Source: Halomonas organivorans
Lineage (GTDB): Bacteria; Pseudomonadota; Gammaproteobacteria; Pseudomonadales; Halomonadaceae
Length of the DNA stretch: 64,000 nucleotides
Assembly (NCBI RefSeq): GCF_014192055.1
Contig: NZ_JACHXM010000006.1
Span: 62,001-126,000 of the forward strand
Direction: 5' to 3'
The notes below the pieces were generated by a model. That model made no database searches, had not been told where the DNA came from, and worked only from the letters and a program-made list of their open reading frames with translations. Of the stretch, positions 43,073 through 45,855 are shown piece after piece. Every line of letters begins with the position of its first letter. Within the stretch, counting starts at the first letter, position 1. Position numbers and translations under genes: made by a program.

Positions 43073-43657
43073 ATGAACTTCCTGGCCCACGGCTGGCTCG
43101 CGCGCGGCGGCAGCGACGACTTCCTCTACGGCAACTTGATCGCCGACGGCGTCAAGGGCGCCGACCTGTCGGCGTGGCCGACGGCAGTGGCGGAGGGGAT
43201 CCGCCACCATCGTCGCGTGGATGCCTTCGTCGATGGTCATGCGGTGATCGGCGAGATGAAGGACAGGGCTCCCCGCGGTGGGCGCCGCGTCGCCGGCATC
43301 GCCCTCGATCTGATGTGGGATCACTGTCTGGCACGCCGCTTGACGATAGCCGAACGCGACTGGCTGATTCCCCGCTGCTACCGGCTGCTGGAGACGCGGC
43401 CGGCCCCGACGCGCCTGGCGGCCATGGCGCCGGCCCTGGTCAGCCAGGACTGGCTGCGCGGCTATGCGGATTTTCGCTTCACCTGCCGGGCCGTGGCGGG
43501 GCTGGGGCGACGGCTCTCGGGACCCAACCGGCTTGCGGAGTTGCTGCCCTGGCTCGAGCGCGACTATATGGCCCTGGACGAGGCCTTCGAGCGCCTGTGG
43601 CCGGACCTCGAGGCCAGGCTCGGGGTCCGGCCGGGGTCAGTCGACCCGCAGCCATAG
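43073..43657 (+). CDS. acpH: Acyl-carrier-protein phosphodiesterase
   Basis: Removes phosphopantetheine from holo-ACP; 194 residues. It starts MNFLAHGWLARGGSDDFLYGN with the conserved GNLIADGVKG and IRHHRRVDAFVD, which provide metal ligands in this HD-like family. The start is 1 nt after the tusE stop. The 3' end overlaps the convergent moeA 3' end by 21 bp. Confidence 0.9.
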   Translation: MNFLAHGWLARGGSDDFLYGNLIADGVKGADLSAWPTAVAEGIRHHRRVDAFVDGHAVIGEMKDRAPRGGRRVAGIALDLMWDHCLARRLTIAERDWLIPRCYRLLETRPAPTRLAAMAPALVSQDWLRGYADFRFTCRAVAGLGRRLSGPNRLAELLPWLERDYMALDEAFERLWPDLEARLGVRPGSVDPQP

Positions 43658-44842
43658 GCAGTCCACGGCAGCGCCTTTCGCCAGCGATGTCTCGGGCGGG
43701 ACGATGGCCAGGGCATCGGCCCCCACGCAGGACGACAGTACGCCGGAGTTCTGGTCGCGGAAGGCGTGGGCGGTGATGCCTTCGGCGGTGAAATCCAGGG
43801 TCACGCGCATGTAATGCTGGCGGGGGCCGGTGTGCGTCTCGAAGGCGGCACGGGCGTTGAGCCGGGGCAGGCTGCCAAGGGCAGGGCAGTCCAGCAGCGC
43901 TCCCATCAGCGGACGCAGGAACAGCCAGGCGCCGACGAAGCCGGACACCGGGTTGCCTGGCAGCCCCACGAAGCGCACCTCGCCGCTGGCGCCGGGCAGG
44001 CGCCCCAGCGCCAACGGCTTGCCGGGGCGAATCGCCAGCCGCCACAGGTCGAGCCGGCCCAGCGCCTCGACGGCGCCACGGACGTGATCCTCTTCCCCCA
44101 CGCTGACACCACCGGTGGTGATGACCACATCCGCCTGTTCGGCGGCCTGGGCGAGCAGGCGCCGCGTTCCCTCGGCGGTATCCGGGACAGTGGCGACCTG
44201 AATGACGTCGGCGCCGAAACGGGTCAGCAGTTCGCGCAGCATGGGGCGGTTCGAGTTGTAGATCTGTCCCGGGCCCAGCGGCTGGCCGGGCTCGACGATC
44301 TCGTCTCCGGTGGAGAGCAGCGCGACCCGCGGGCGACACCGGACCGAGACGTCGGTGATGCCCTGGCCGGCGAGATGGCCGAGTGCTGCGGCATCGAGAC
44401 GCGTGCCGGCGCCAAGCAGGCATGCGCCGGCCGCCACGTCGCGGCCGCGACGACGCAGGTTGTCGCCGGACGGGACGTCGGCGGGAATCCATGCCTGCTC
44501 GCCGTCCAGTTCGACCTTTTCCTGCATGACCACGCAATCGGCGCCGGGCGGGATCTCGCCACCGGTGAAGATGCGTGCGCAGCTTCCGCGCTCGAGCGGC
44601 GTGGCCACTGCACCGGCGGTGATCCGTTGGCGGACCGGCAGCCAGCGACCGGCGTCGTCGTGATGCAGCGCATAGCCGTCCATGGCGCTGTTGTCGAAGG
44701 GCGGCACGTCGAGCTGGGCCGCCACGTCCTCGGCCAGCACTCGTCCCGCGGCCTCCGAGGTCGACAGGCGCTCGGCACCGAGCGGCACGACGTCCTCGAG
44801 CAGGGCGGTGAGCGCGGCCTCGACCGGCTTGAGCTCAGCCAT
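43637..44842 (-). CDS. moeA: Molybdopterin molybdenumtransferase MoeA
   Basis: Inserts molybdenum into adenylylated molybdopterin, the last step of molybdenum cofactor synthesis; 401 residues. PPFDNSAMDGYAL near residue 47, IFTGGEIPPGADCVVMQE, the STGDEIVEPGQPLGPGQIYNSN region (quoted as STGDEIVEPG) and TTGGVSVGEEDHVRGAVEAL (quoted as TTGGVSVGEEDHV) are all present. Its start codon is preceded by GGAG inside the first of two 85-bp repeats, and the upstream mini-ORF stops within its second and third codons. Confidence 0.95.
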   Translation of the reverse strand: MAELKPVEAALTALLEDVVPLGAERLSTSEAAGRVLAEDVAAQLDVPPFDNSAMDGYALHHDDAGRWLPVRQRITAGAVATPLERGSCARIFTGGEIPPGADCVVMQEKVELDGEQAWIPADVPSGDNLRRRGRDVAAGACLLGAGTRLDAAALGHLAGQGITDVSVRCRPRVALLSTGDEIVEPGQPLGPGQIYNSNRPMLRELLTRFGADVIQVATVPDTAEGTRRLLAQAAEQADVVITTGGVSVGEEDHVRGAVEALGRLDLWRLAIRPGKPLALGRLPGASGEVRFVGLPGNPVSGFVGAWLFLRPLMGALLDCPALGSLPRLNARAAFETHTGPRQHYMRVTLDFTAEGITAHAFRDQNSGVLSSCVGADALAIVPPETSLAKGAAVDCLWLRVD

Positions 44843-44927
44843 GGGTGCCTCGCTCCGGAATCATCGGGTTGGCAGGACCTTGCAGAGAGTGACACGGCGT
44901 GTGTCGCCGGGTGCTGGTGTCATCCAT
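44835..44927 (-). CDS. 30-codon mini-ORF, copy 2, coupled to moeA
   Basis: A short frame with GGAG 10 nt before its ATG. It ends ...MIPERGTHG, the same seven-residue tail (PERGTHG) as MoaB. Its peptide is identical to that of the neighbouring copy. The TGA stop overlaps the moeA start (ATGGCTGA), so ribosomes finishing it could restart on moeA. It may be a coupling cistron rather than a functional peptide; translation is unproven. Confidence 0.4.
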   Translation of the reverse strand: MDDTSTRRHTPCHSLQGPANPMIPERGTHG

Positions 44928-45043
44928 GAGTGCCTCGCTCCGGAATCATCGGGTTGGCAGGACCTTGCAGAGAGTGACACGGCGTGTGTCGCCGGGTGCT
45001 GGTGTCATCCATGGGTGCCTCGCTCCGGAATCACCAGGTTGGC
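44841..45043. repeat. 85-bp tandem direct repeat between moaB and moeA
   Basis: Two complete units (44841-44925 and 44926-45010) differ at a single base. A partial third copy (45011-45043) lies inside the moaB 3' end. Each unit carries, on the minus strand, a GGAG ribosome site, an ATG and the end of the previous frame. The unit looks like a diverged copy of the moaB 3' end (shared CGACACA-GCCGTGT, GCCAACC and ATTCCGGAGCGAGGCAC segments) that then duplicated in tandem. Confidence 0.95.
44920..45012 (-). CDS. 30-codon mini-ORF, copy 1, coupled to moaB
   Basis: Starts at an ATG that overlaps the moaB stop (ATGGATGA, 8 nt shared) and ends in the same way over the start of copy 2. The peptide begins MDDTSTRRHTPCHSLQG and ends MIPERGTHG. 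Aligned to the MoaB C-terminus (SRHKPCN...FANLVIPERGTHG) it is clearly related. GGAG precedes it at 10 nt. No known peptide family. Confidence 0.4.
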   Translation of the reverse strand: MDDTSTRRHTPCHSLQGPANPMIPERGTHG

Positions 45044-45526
45044 GAAATTACACGGCTTGTGTCGGCTGTCGAGCTGCTCGGCGAGGATGCCGTCCCAGCC
45101 GGTGCGGCAGGCGCCGGTGGAGCCGGGCAGGCAGAACACCACGGTGGCGTTGGCCAGCCCGCCCAGGCAGCGACTCTGCACCGTGGAGCTGCCCACCTCG
45201 TGCCAGGAAAGCTGGCGGAACAGTTCACCGAAGCCCTCGATGCGCTTGTCGAGCAGCACCGAGACCGCCTCGGGCGTGGAGTCGCGACCGGTGAAGCCGG
45301 TGCCGCCGGTGGTCAAGACCACCTGGACCTCGGGATCGGCGATCCAGACGGCCACCACGGCGCGGATGCGGTAGACGTCATCGGCGACGATACGCTTGTC
45401 GGCCAGTCGATGGCCGGCGGCGGTGAGACGCTCGACCAGCGCCTGGCCGCTGCGGTCGGTGTCCTCGGTGCGGGTATCCGAGACCGTCAGAACCGCCACC
45501 GACAGCGGGATCATCGCCTCGCTCAT
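45005..45526 (-). CDS. moaB: Molybdenum cofactor biosynthesis protein MoaB
   Basis: MogA/MoaB-type protein that adenylylates molybdopterin before molybdenum insertion; 173 residues. LTVSDTRTEDTDRSGQ near the start and the molybdopterin-binding LTTGGTGFTGRDSTPEAV motif are intact, as is FCLPGSTGACRTGWDGILAEQL. The ATG overlaps the upstream DUF1244 stop (ATGA). The last ~20 residues are the source of the downstream mini-ORF repeats. Together with moeA it completes the last two cofactor steps. Confidence 0.94.
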   Translation of the reverse strand: MSEAMIPLSVAVLTVSDTRTEDTDRSGQALVERLTAAGHRLADKRIVADDVYRIRAVVAVWIADPEVQVVLTTGGTGFTGRDSTPEAVSVLLDKRIEGFGELFRQLSWHEVGSSTVQSRCLGGLANATVVFCLPGSTGACRTGWDGILAEQLDSRHKPCNFANLVIPERGTHG

Positions 45527-45855
45527 GAGTCGGCGTCCTGCTTGGCCGCTGCCTTCTGTTGCTGGCGAGCCTCGAAGGCGGCCTGCTGTTCCGGCGTGGC
45601 GTCGGCCTGATACTTGGCCTTCCACTCACCGTAGGGCATGCCGTAGACGTATTCCCGTGCAGCCTCGTAGTTCACGGTTTCTCCGCGCTCCTCGGCCGCG
45701 GCGACCAGCCATTTGGAAAGGCAGTTGCGGCAGAAGTCGGCGAGAATCATCAGGTCGATGTTCTGCACTTCCTTGTGCTCGTCCAGGTGGCGAAGCAGGC
45801 GACGGAAGGCGGCGGCTTCGAGCTCGGTGCGGGTGCTGTCGTCCAGGTGTTGCAT
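45523..45855 (-). CDS. DUF1244 family protein
   Basis: A 110-residue protein of unknown function. The DUF1244 core is visible: EAAAFRRLLRHLDEHKEVQN, then MILADFCRNCLSKWL with two cysteines (CRNC), and EYVYGMPYGEWKAKYQ. The C-terminal ~25 residues are a Gln/Ala-rich charged tail. The CxxC could bind metal. GGAG lies 8 nt before the chosen ATG; earlier in-frame ATGs lack this. It is the first gene of an operon with moaB and moeA, suggesting a link to molybdenum enzymes, but that is inference. Confidence 0.85.
   Translation of the reverse strand: MQHLDDSTRTELEAAAFRRLLRHLDEHKEVQNIDLMILADFCRNCLSKWLVAAAEERGETVNYEAAREYVYGMPYGEWKAKYQADATPEQQAAFEARQQQKAAAKQDADS

Follow-up and report, generated by a model that had tools for sequence, protein, structure and literature searches.

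Why are moaB and moeA of Halomonas organivorans separated by a tandem array of short open frames, and where did these frames come from? We considered these questions in the window, i.e. the whole 64,000-nt stretch of DNA that was analysed, and at the moaB loci of related genomes. The features of the locus in the window are as follows.

45523..45855, minus strand: DUF1244 gene, the first gene in the overlapping chain (sequence; Pfam PF06844, E 1.2e-36)
45005..45526, minus strand: moaB (ORF and translation; MoaB PF00994, E 1.2e-29)
44835..45043, no strand assigned: tandem array, period 85, 2.5 copies (Tandem Repeats Finder)
45018..45026, minus strand: GGAGCGAGG, Shine-Dalgarno (SD)-like site upstream of mini-ORF 1 (sequence, anti-SD pairing)
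44920..45012, minus strand: mini-ORF 1, 30 codons and TGA
45005..45012, minus strand: ATGGATGA, overlap of moaB stop and mini-ORF 1 start (sequence)
44933..44941, minus strand: GGAGCGAGG upstream of mini-ORF 2 (sequence)
44835..44927, minus strand: mini-ORF 2, 30 codons and TGA, with the same peptide as mini-ORF 1
44920..44927, minus strand: ATGGATGA, overlap of mini-ORF 1 stop and mini-ORF 2 start (sequence)
44848..44856, minus strand: GGAGCGAGG upstream of moeA (sequence)
44835..44842, minus strand: ATGGCTGA, overlap of mini-ORF 2 stop and moeA start (sequence)
43637..44842, minus strand: moeA, 401 codons (MoeA PF03453, PF00994, PF03454)

The TGA of the DUF1244 gene overlaps the moaB ATG as ATGA; the chain then runs from moaB through two 30-codon ORFs to moeA, with a ATGNNTGA overlap, preceded by GGAGCGAGG, at each stop/start. 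The initial annotation had described two 85-bp units with a partial third in the moaB 3′ end, and a minus-strand chain of 30-codon frames whose stop overlaps the next start. Both descriptions were confirmed, the second from the ORFs and the sequence; the array occupies exactly 44835–45043, and its Tandem Repeats Finder score is 390, against 64 for the next-best tandem repeat in the window. The partial third unit is the last 39 bases of moaB. In the body there is a single mismatch between the two full units; if the last overlap is counted in, 2 of 85 bases differ, the second difference being ATGGATGA versus ATGGCTGA at moeA. Translation also bore out the earlier statement that the two peptides are identical (MDDTSTRRHTPCHSLQGPANPMIPERGTHG). 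The moaB product, with the C-terminus ...RHKPCNFANLVIPERGTHG, has its best solved-structure matches in 1r2k and 1mkz (‘Molybdenum cofactor biosynthesis protein B’), and its nearest named proteins are the MoaB of H. maura and H. stenophila (97% identical). Three copies of the SD-plus-start word GGAGCGAGGCACYCATGG are present in the window, all of them in the array (mean in shuffles 0.02; up to two mismatches allowed). In a comparison of a unit model with the 4.8-Mb genome, the moaB 3′ end and the two units took the top three places (E 1.3e-16 to 5.8e-11); no further unit was found elsewhere in the genome by this search, the next place having E 0.13.

The assembly is a draft in 72 contigs, and a repeat in a draft may be an artefact of assembly, as the initial annotation had warned. 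Nevertheless, the array of 209 bp sits inside a 205-kb contig, and units are present at the moaB–moeA junction in 33 other genomes of the family, at least two of them complete-chromosome records with one-unit loci (H. beimenensis, NZ_CP021435.1, and Halomonas sp. Y3, NZ_CP099975.1); an artefact is thus hardly credible.

A moaB gene of this kind is present in all 90 genomes of the genus group. Our chain script found mini-ORFs in 26 of them; the 27th is G024, in which the array is split over two contig ends (L236 and L235), one adjoining a run of N. At least 34 of the 275 family genomes carry units: 27 of the genus, 2 of group g3 and 5 of g16, where the counts outside the genus come from loci selected by the model and short remnants would escape. 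Copy number among relatives varies from 0 to 4, with four units in H. maura and H. nitroreducens, three in H. ramblicola and one in H. beimenensis and H. getboli. Most units measure 82, 85, 88, 94 or 100 nt from start to start; a few are shorter or longer. As no unit was seen in 63 of the 90 genus genomes, the unit is dispensable. On a quick tree of 157 rows, which does not distinguish gain from loss, presence changes to absence or the reverse at least 18 times, and 12 of these changes are forced by well-supported branches. At the level of the order 105 genomes matched. Thirty loci were fetched, four of them from Halomonadaceae; moeA follows moaB on the same strand in 25 of the 30, and in the six wide moaB–moeA gaps that were read by eye no mini-ORF chain was seen outside the family.

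As to origin, the unit had been taken initially for a diverged copy of the moaB 3′ end that was later duplicated, and this is well supported by its likeness to the MoaB tail and by the loci of relatives. The likeness had been placed in a common PERGTHG tail; it does exist, but it extends further if the unit is taken to have an insert of 4 residues, with RHKPCN-F-ANLVIPERG of MoaB aligned to RHxPCxSLxxxANxxIPERG of the unit. The moaB tail coding for ANLVIPERGxHG contains the SD-like site and the start of moeA. In the other families of the order, 26 MoaB tails all lacked ANLVIPERGxHG and none was ANLVIPERGQHG-like, with PCNF being widely kept. In 24 first units, third codon positions of LVIP match those of moaB from the same genome with frequency 0.82, versus 0.47 in shuffled pairs; for P-C the frequencies are 0.60 and 0.42. 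Units within an array are 0.94 identical (21 pairs), and units of different species 0.71 (716 pairs). Since the 3′ parts of units are closest to their own moaB and the arrays are internally alike, we conclude that the units derive from the moaB 3′ end. They seem to be still homogenised with this end and with one another, and the 12-base insert common to the units suggests a single origin followed by many losses.

How strictly is the chain of overlaps kept? We considered 156 distinct moaB loci (158 rows minus two repeats of the same genome). An unbroken overlap chain leads from moaB to moeA in 145 of them, directly in 113 and through mini-ORFs in 32 (one mini-ORF in 18, two in 9, three in 3 and four in 2). 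In the other 11 loci the genes are apart (eight), the locus is at a contig end (L029 and G024) or moeA is degenerate (L080). In the last case (genome G059), the moeA that follows moaB is degenerate or deleted; L029, cut by the contig end, nonetheless reaches the moeA start. Inserts between moaB and an adjacent moeA come in 16 sizes from 31 to 376 nt at 33 loci (L029 included), and no broken chain and no broken frame was met at loci with inserts; with random insert lengths about two-thirds would be expected to fall out of frame, although many of the loci are related.

Every junction in the 33 loci with mini-ORFs reaching moeA is a stop/start overlap, of 8 bases (the −8 class). G024 differs: its shortened last unit, of 53 nt, ends on moeA with an ATGA overlap instead of ATGNNTGA, which makes one −4 junction. 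Locus L029 has a single 40-codon frame, apparently two merged units, that ends on the moeA start. The second unit of L050 (L050:993-1220, minus strand) has a multi-copy repeat inside, an inverted-repeat element with GGGGTCAGACCCC ends, and its frame is still open over 75 codons; the element has matches at 39 places of the genome, counting the one in the unit. Anti-SD pairing of −6 kcal/mol or stronger is available to 88.6% of 44 mini-ORF starts versus 25.9% of 992 ATGs of the window. A frame rule was rejected as separate proof: that all 44 units are 1 mod 3 in length merely follows from the definition of a unit as starting 5 nt before the previous stop. In a simulation of stop codons in 24 species, on average 5.6 species acquired a stop and the probability of none was 0.002, a rough figure in which species are independent draws from the consensus and the 24 had been selected for open frames.

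In eight genomes moaB and moeA lie 0.6–13 kb apart, and seven of the eight keep a private leader of 23–29 codons ending on the moeA start. Seven of these genomes are of the Vreelandella type, with 0.6–7.7 kb between the genes; they were found with a leader model, and six have the private ORF. In five of them, the ones from which the model was built, the leader is such as MPSLHNTRFMLTNLVIPGRGQHG followed by a stop. The leader of G223 has its peptide rewritten (MPLLDNIQFVITYLTSSAQKQHGEVAHG and a stop), with the end on ATGGCTGA retained. The leader frame of G222 runs on into moeA, without a stop there, through a single-base difference in a run of G; this fusion is possibly an error, the assembly being 86% complete with 6% contamination. 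In H. salicampi the two genes share a contig but are ∼13 kb apart; moeA stands behind a transposase-like frame (by eye) and has a new frame of 23 codons ending on its start. This single case is weak because an open frame of 23–29 codons before moeA can arise by chance. Coupling thus appears to be kept in seven of eight separated genomes, two of them lacking the usual peptide. A second moaB–moeA pair of H. salicampi (L278) also overlaps, as ATGA.

The Vreelandella-type moaB–moeA junction is also a spot of repeated cargo insertion, as judged by eye from translations: restriction-like or ATP-binding-like genes are there in L237, L240 and L239, TRAP-transporter-like and other genes in L238, L241 and L242, and a transposase-like gene in L277. 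Behind the cargo moeA mostly retains an overlapping leader ORF.

We propose that the unit is probably a translational-coupling mini-cistron, made from a duplicated moaB 3′ end, that relays ribosomes into moeA. Of three functions suggested initially (ribosome relay, tuning of moeA by copy number and a new peptide) the relay is the best supported, by comparison of loci in which the overlap chain is kept and private leaders persist. In most relatives examined the moaB 3′ end itself bears the SD-like site and the start of moeA, so ribosomes terminating on moaB could restart at the overlapping ATG and translate moeA. A copy of this end that had gained a short insert and another 5′ part, if in frame with the next start, would make an extra cistron, which recombination could then duplicate, delete and homogenise to give 0–4 copies, while ribosomes from moaB would restart at successive ATGNNTGA until they reach moeA. 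Only inserts framed to end on the next start would survive, because an untranslated spacer would cut the supply of ribosomes to moeA. Under this mechanism the mini-ORFs are presumably translated, moeA would depend on reinitiation, and copy number may affect MoeA.

Experiments with other gene pairs are relevant here, as given in the available text of the respective papers. In six gene pairs a gap of ∼20 nt nearly abolishes coupling, and in two pairs coupling needed no more of the upstream gene than its last 15 nt (PMC10666635). Three overlap types are enriched, and the −8 spacing is among them (PMC12548453). From these two sources we infer that moeA should stay coupled behind a duplicated 3′ end if this brings an SD and an overlapping start. 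In reporter studies overlaps longer than 4 nt reduced coupling (PMC12548453), thus −8 junctions may be leaky and chains of them leakier.

The same mechanism could operate with no benefit from the units, if the junction is duplicated recurrently and duplications are purged only when translation of moeA breaks. This reading differs from an adaptive relay only with regard to fitness, so that our odds for the two overlap; taken by itself, neutrality is a real possibility that we hold to be somewhat improbable. It agrees with the many changes between presence and absence on the tree, with relatives lacking units being common and with the homogeneity of the arrays. On the other hand, units with a similar insert (12 bases, or 9 in L164) have lasted in three genus groups even though a single recombination with the moaB end could remove them, and core amino acids are conserved.

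The repeat could also work at the RNA or DNA level, as an RNA structure, a riboswitch or a promoter for moeA. A small GACAC..GTGTC hairpin is possible in the window unit, and mycobacterial interspersed repetitive units (MIRUs) at senX3-regX3 are said, in the available text of PMC4213456, to drive senX3-independent expression of regX3. However, the consensus fold of 30 units has 3 pairs at −1.3 kcal/mol, with no conserved RNA structure, and the fold of the window array is no more stable than those of shuffled sequences (z +0.94). Rfam gave no match for the array; no terminator-like site was seen in it, nor any promoter-like site in a search confined to the sigma-70 type. We regard this possibility as very unlikely.

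Is the peptide itself under selection? In 24 first units compared with their own moaB, codons for H, P, C, A, N, I and P (columns chosen after they had been seen to be conserved) differ at 51 of 168 third positions and at 3 of 336 first and second positions; in a free unit the rate at first and second positions would be expected to be about half the third-position rate or more. Over all moaB-like codons the mismatches are 88 of 360 and 54 of 720, respectively, in sums that omit the rows P C and H P C A N I P (repeats) and Q H G. All codon counts omit five mini-ORFs outside 29–35 residues (L025 unit 2, L029, L030, L050 unit 2 and L163) as well as the near-copy L023, the duplicate L157 and the second-genus units. 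We do not favour gene conversion alone as the explanation of the conserved core, for its third positions have drifted from moaB of the same genome and its first and second positions have not. Among 25 first units Cys is present in 25, Pro in 24 and Ala-Asn in 25. The Asn that follows Cys never varies among 24 aligned MoaB sequences but is free in the unit; the constraint on the unit is therefore not just that on MoaB. The core thus appears to be conserved beyond the needs of a bare relay, which counts against a pure relay, and its pattern, HxPC..AN.VIPERG, hints that the peptide may be selected as well. In column 27 of the first-unit alignment the third codon position is T in all 24 units having this column and the first two positions vary (GGT, CTT, ATT, CAT, GTT).

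One form of this idea takes the unit for the gene of a functional small protein, paralogous to the C-terminal tail of MoaB and acting with MoaB or MoeA, e.g. by occupying the place of the MoaB tail, with coupling being merely its mode of expression. We judge it unlikely. A broader form, doubtful in our estimate, sees in the mini-ORF a new small-protein family kept by selection (HxPC-x6-AN-x-VIPERG) that arose when part of the moaB 3′ end was duplicated; its peptide, nascent or free, would act on termination-reinitiation or on MoaB/MoeA, and its gene copy number would set the MoaB:MoeA ratio. The conserved core speaks for a protein function, but no coding constraint was seen in the N-terminal codons (divergence 0.347 at third and 0.399 at first and second positions) or in the middle codons found only in the unit (0.204 and 0.243). 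The HxPC core is lost and the overlap kept in L030, L025 unit 2, L163, L050 unit 2, the last unit of G024 and the leader of G223; in the second genus Pro is lost in one unit and Asn of AN in another; and sister genomes do without units. AlphaFold gave no structure for the mini-peptide (mean pLDDT 66.5); in its model of MoaB residues 161–170 have mean pLDDT 74 and the last two 44. A search of public proteins with a 40-residue mini-ORF matched only the query itself. The new small peptide of the initial annotation is thus in second place: its core is conserved at the amino-acid level, but several units have lost the core and kept the overlap.

In the papers searched we found no description of this array and none joining Halomonas, moaB and moeA. 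The arrangement for termination-reinitiation, an SD with a stop/start overlap in one of the spacings −1, −4 or −8, is present here, with SD pairing absent at the moeA start after the L029 array (+0.4 kcal/mol). The majority of Halomonadaceae loci, 113 of 156, have a like junction and SD-bearing tail with no mini-ORF, i.e. the direct moaB/moeA overlap. Upstream ORFs and leader cistrons, the natural counterparts of bicistronic design, are likewise short, coupled upstream ORFs (available text of PMC12548453), but the Halomonas units are tandem, lie inside an operon and descend from the 3′ end of the upstream gene. Salmonella mgtQ, between mgtC and mgtB, is also an intergenic mini-ORF that promotes downstream translation; it is described, in the portion of PMC8092293 available, as acting with alternative stem-loops and ribosome-destabilising residues, whereas the Halomonas array has no conserved structure.

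The closest likeness is to MIRUs, described in accessible parts of four papers (PMC12548453, PMC4213456, PMC2734929, PMC9392950) as short tandem units of variable copy number between neighbouring genes, whose ORF is coupled to the next gene through overlapping codons; an example is the three 77-bp units between senX3 and regX3 of Mycobacterium tuberculosis H37Rv. The Halomonas array too has tandem units, mostly within 40–100 bp, in variable copy number and an ORF–gene overlap. According to the same sources, MIRUs are at 41 locations, are said to appear mobile and overlap by −4 nt; the Halomonas unit is at one locus, overlaps by 8 bases (−8 class), and can be traced back to the 3′ end of the gene before it, with which its own 3′ end is homogenised. 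We did not class it as a MIRU because it is not dispersed, being present in the window's genome at the moaB–moeA junction only.

The locus gives an example of an in-frame mini-gene born and kept, though too short for usual annotation, and its origin is readable: the 3′ end of an operon gene was duplicated along with the ribosome-binding site of the next gene. Relatives provide a natural series of 0, 1, 2, 3 and 4 coupled cistrons before one gene, which makes testable both the passage of ribosomes through successive termination-reinitiation and the tuning of a downstream enzyme by copy number. In comparison with the mycobacterial units, the array looks like a second, independent invention of MIRU-like architecture.
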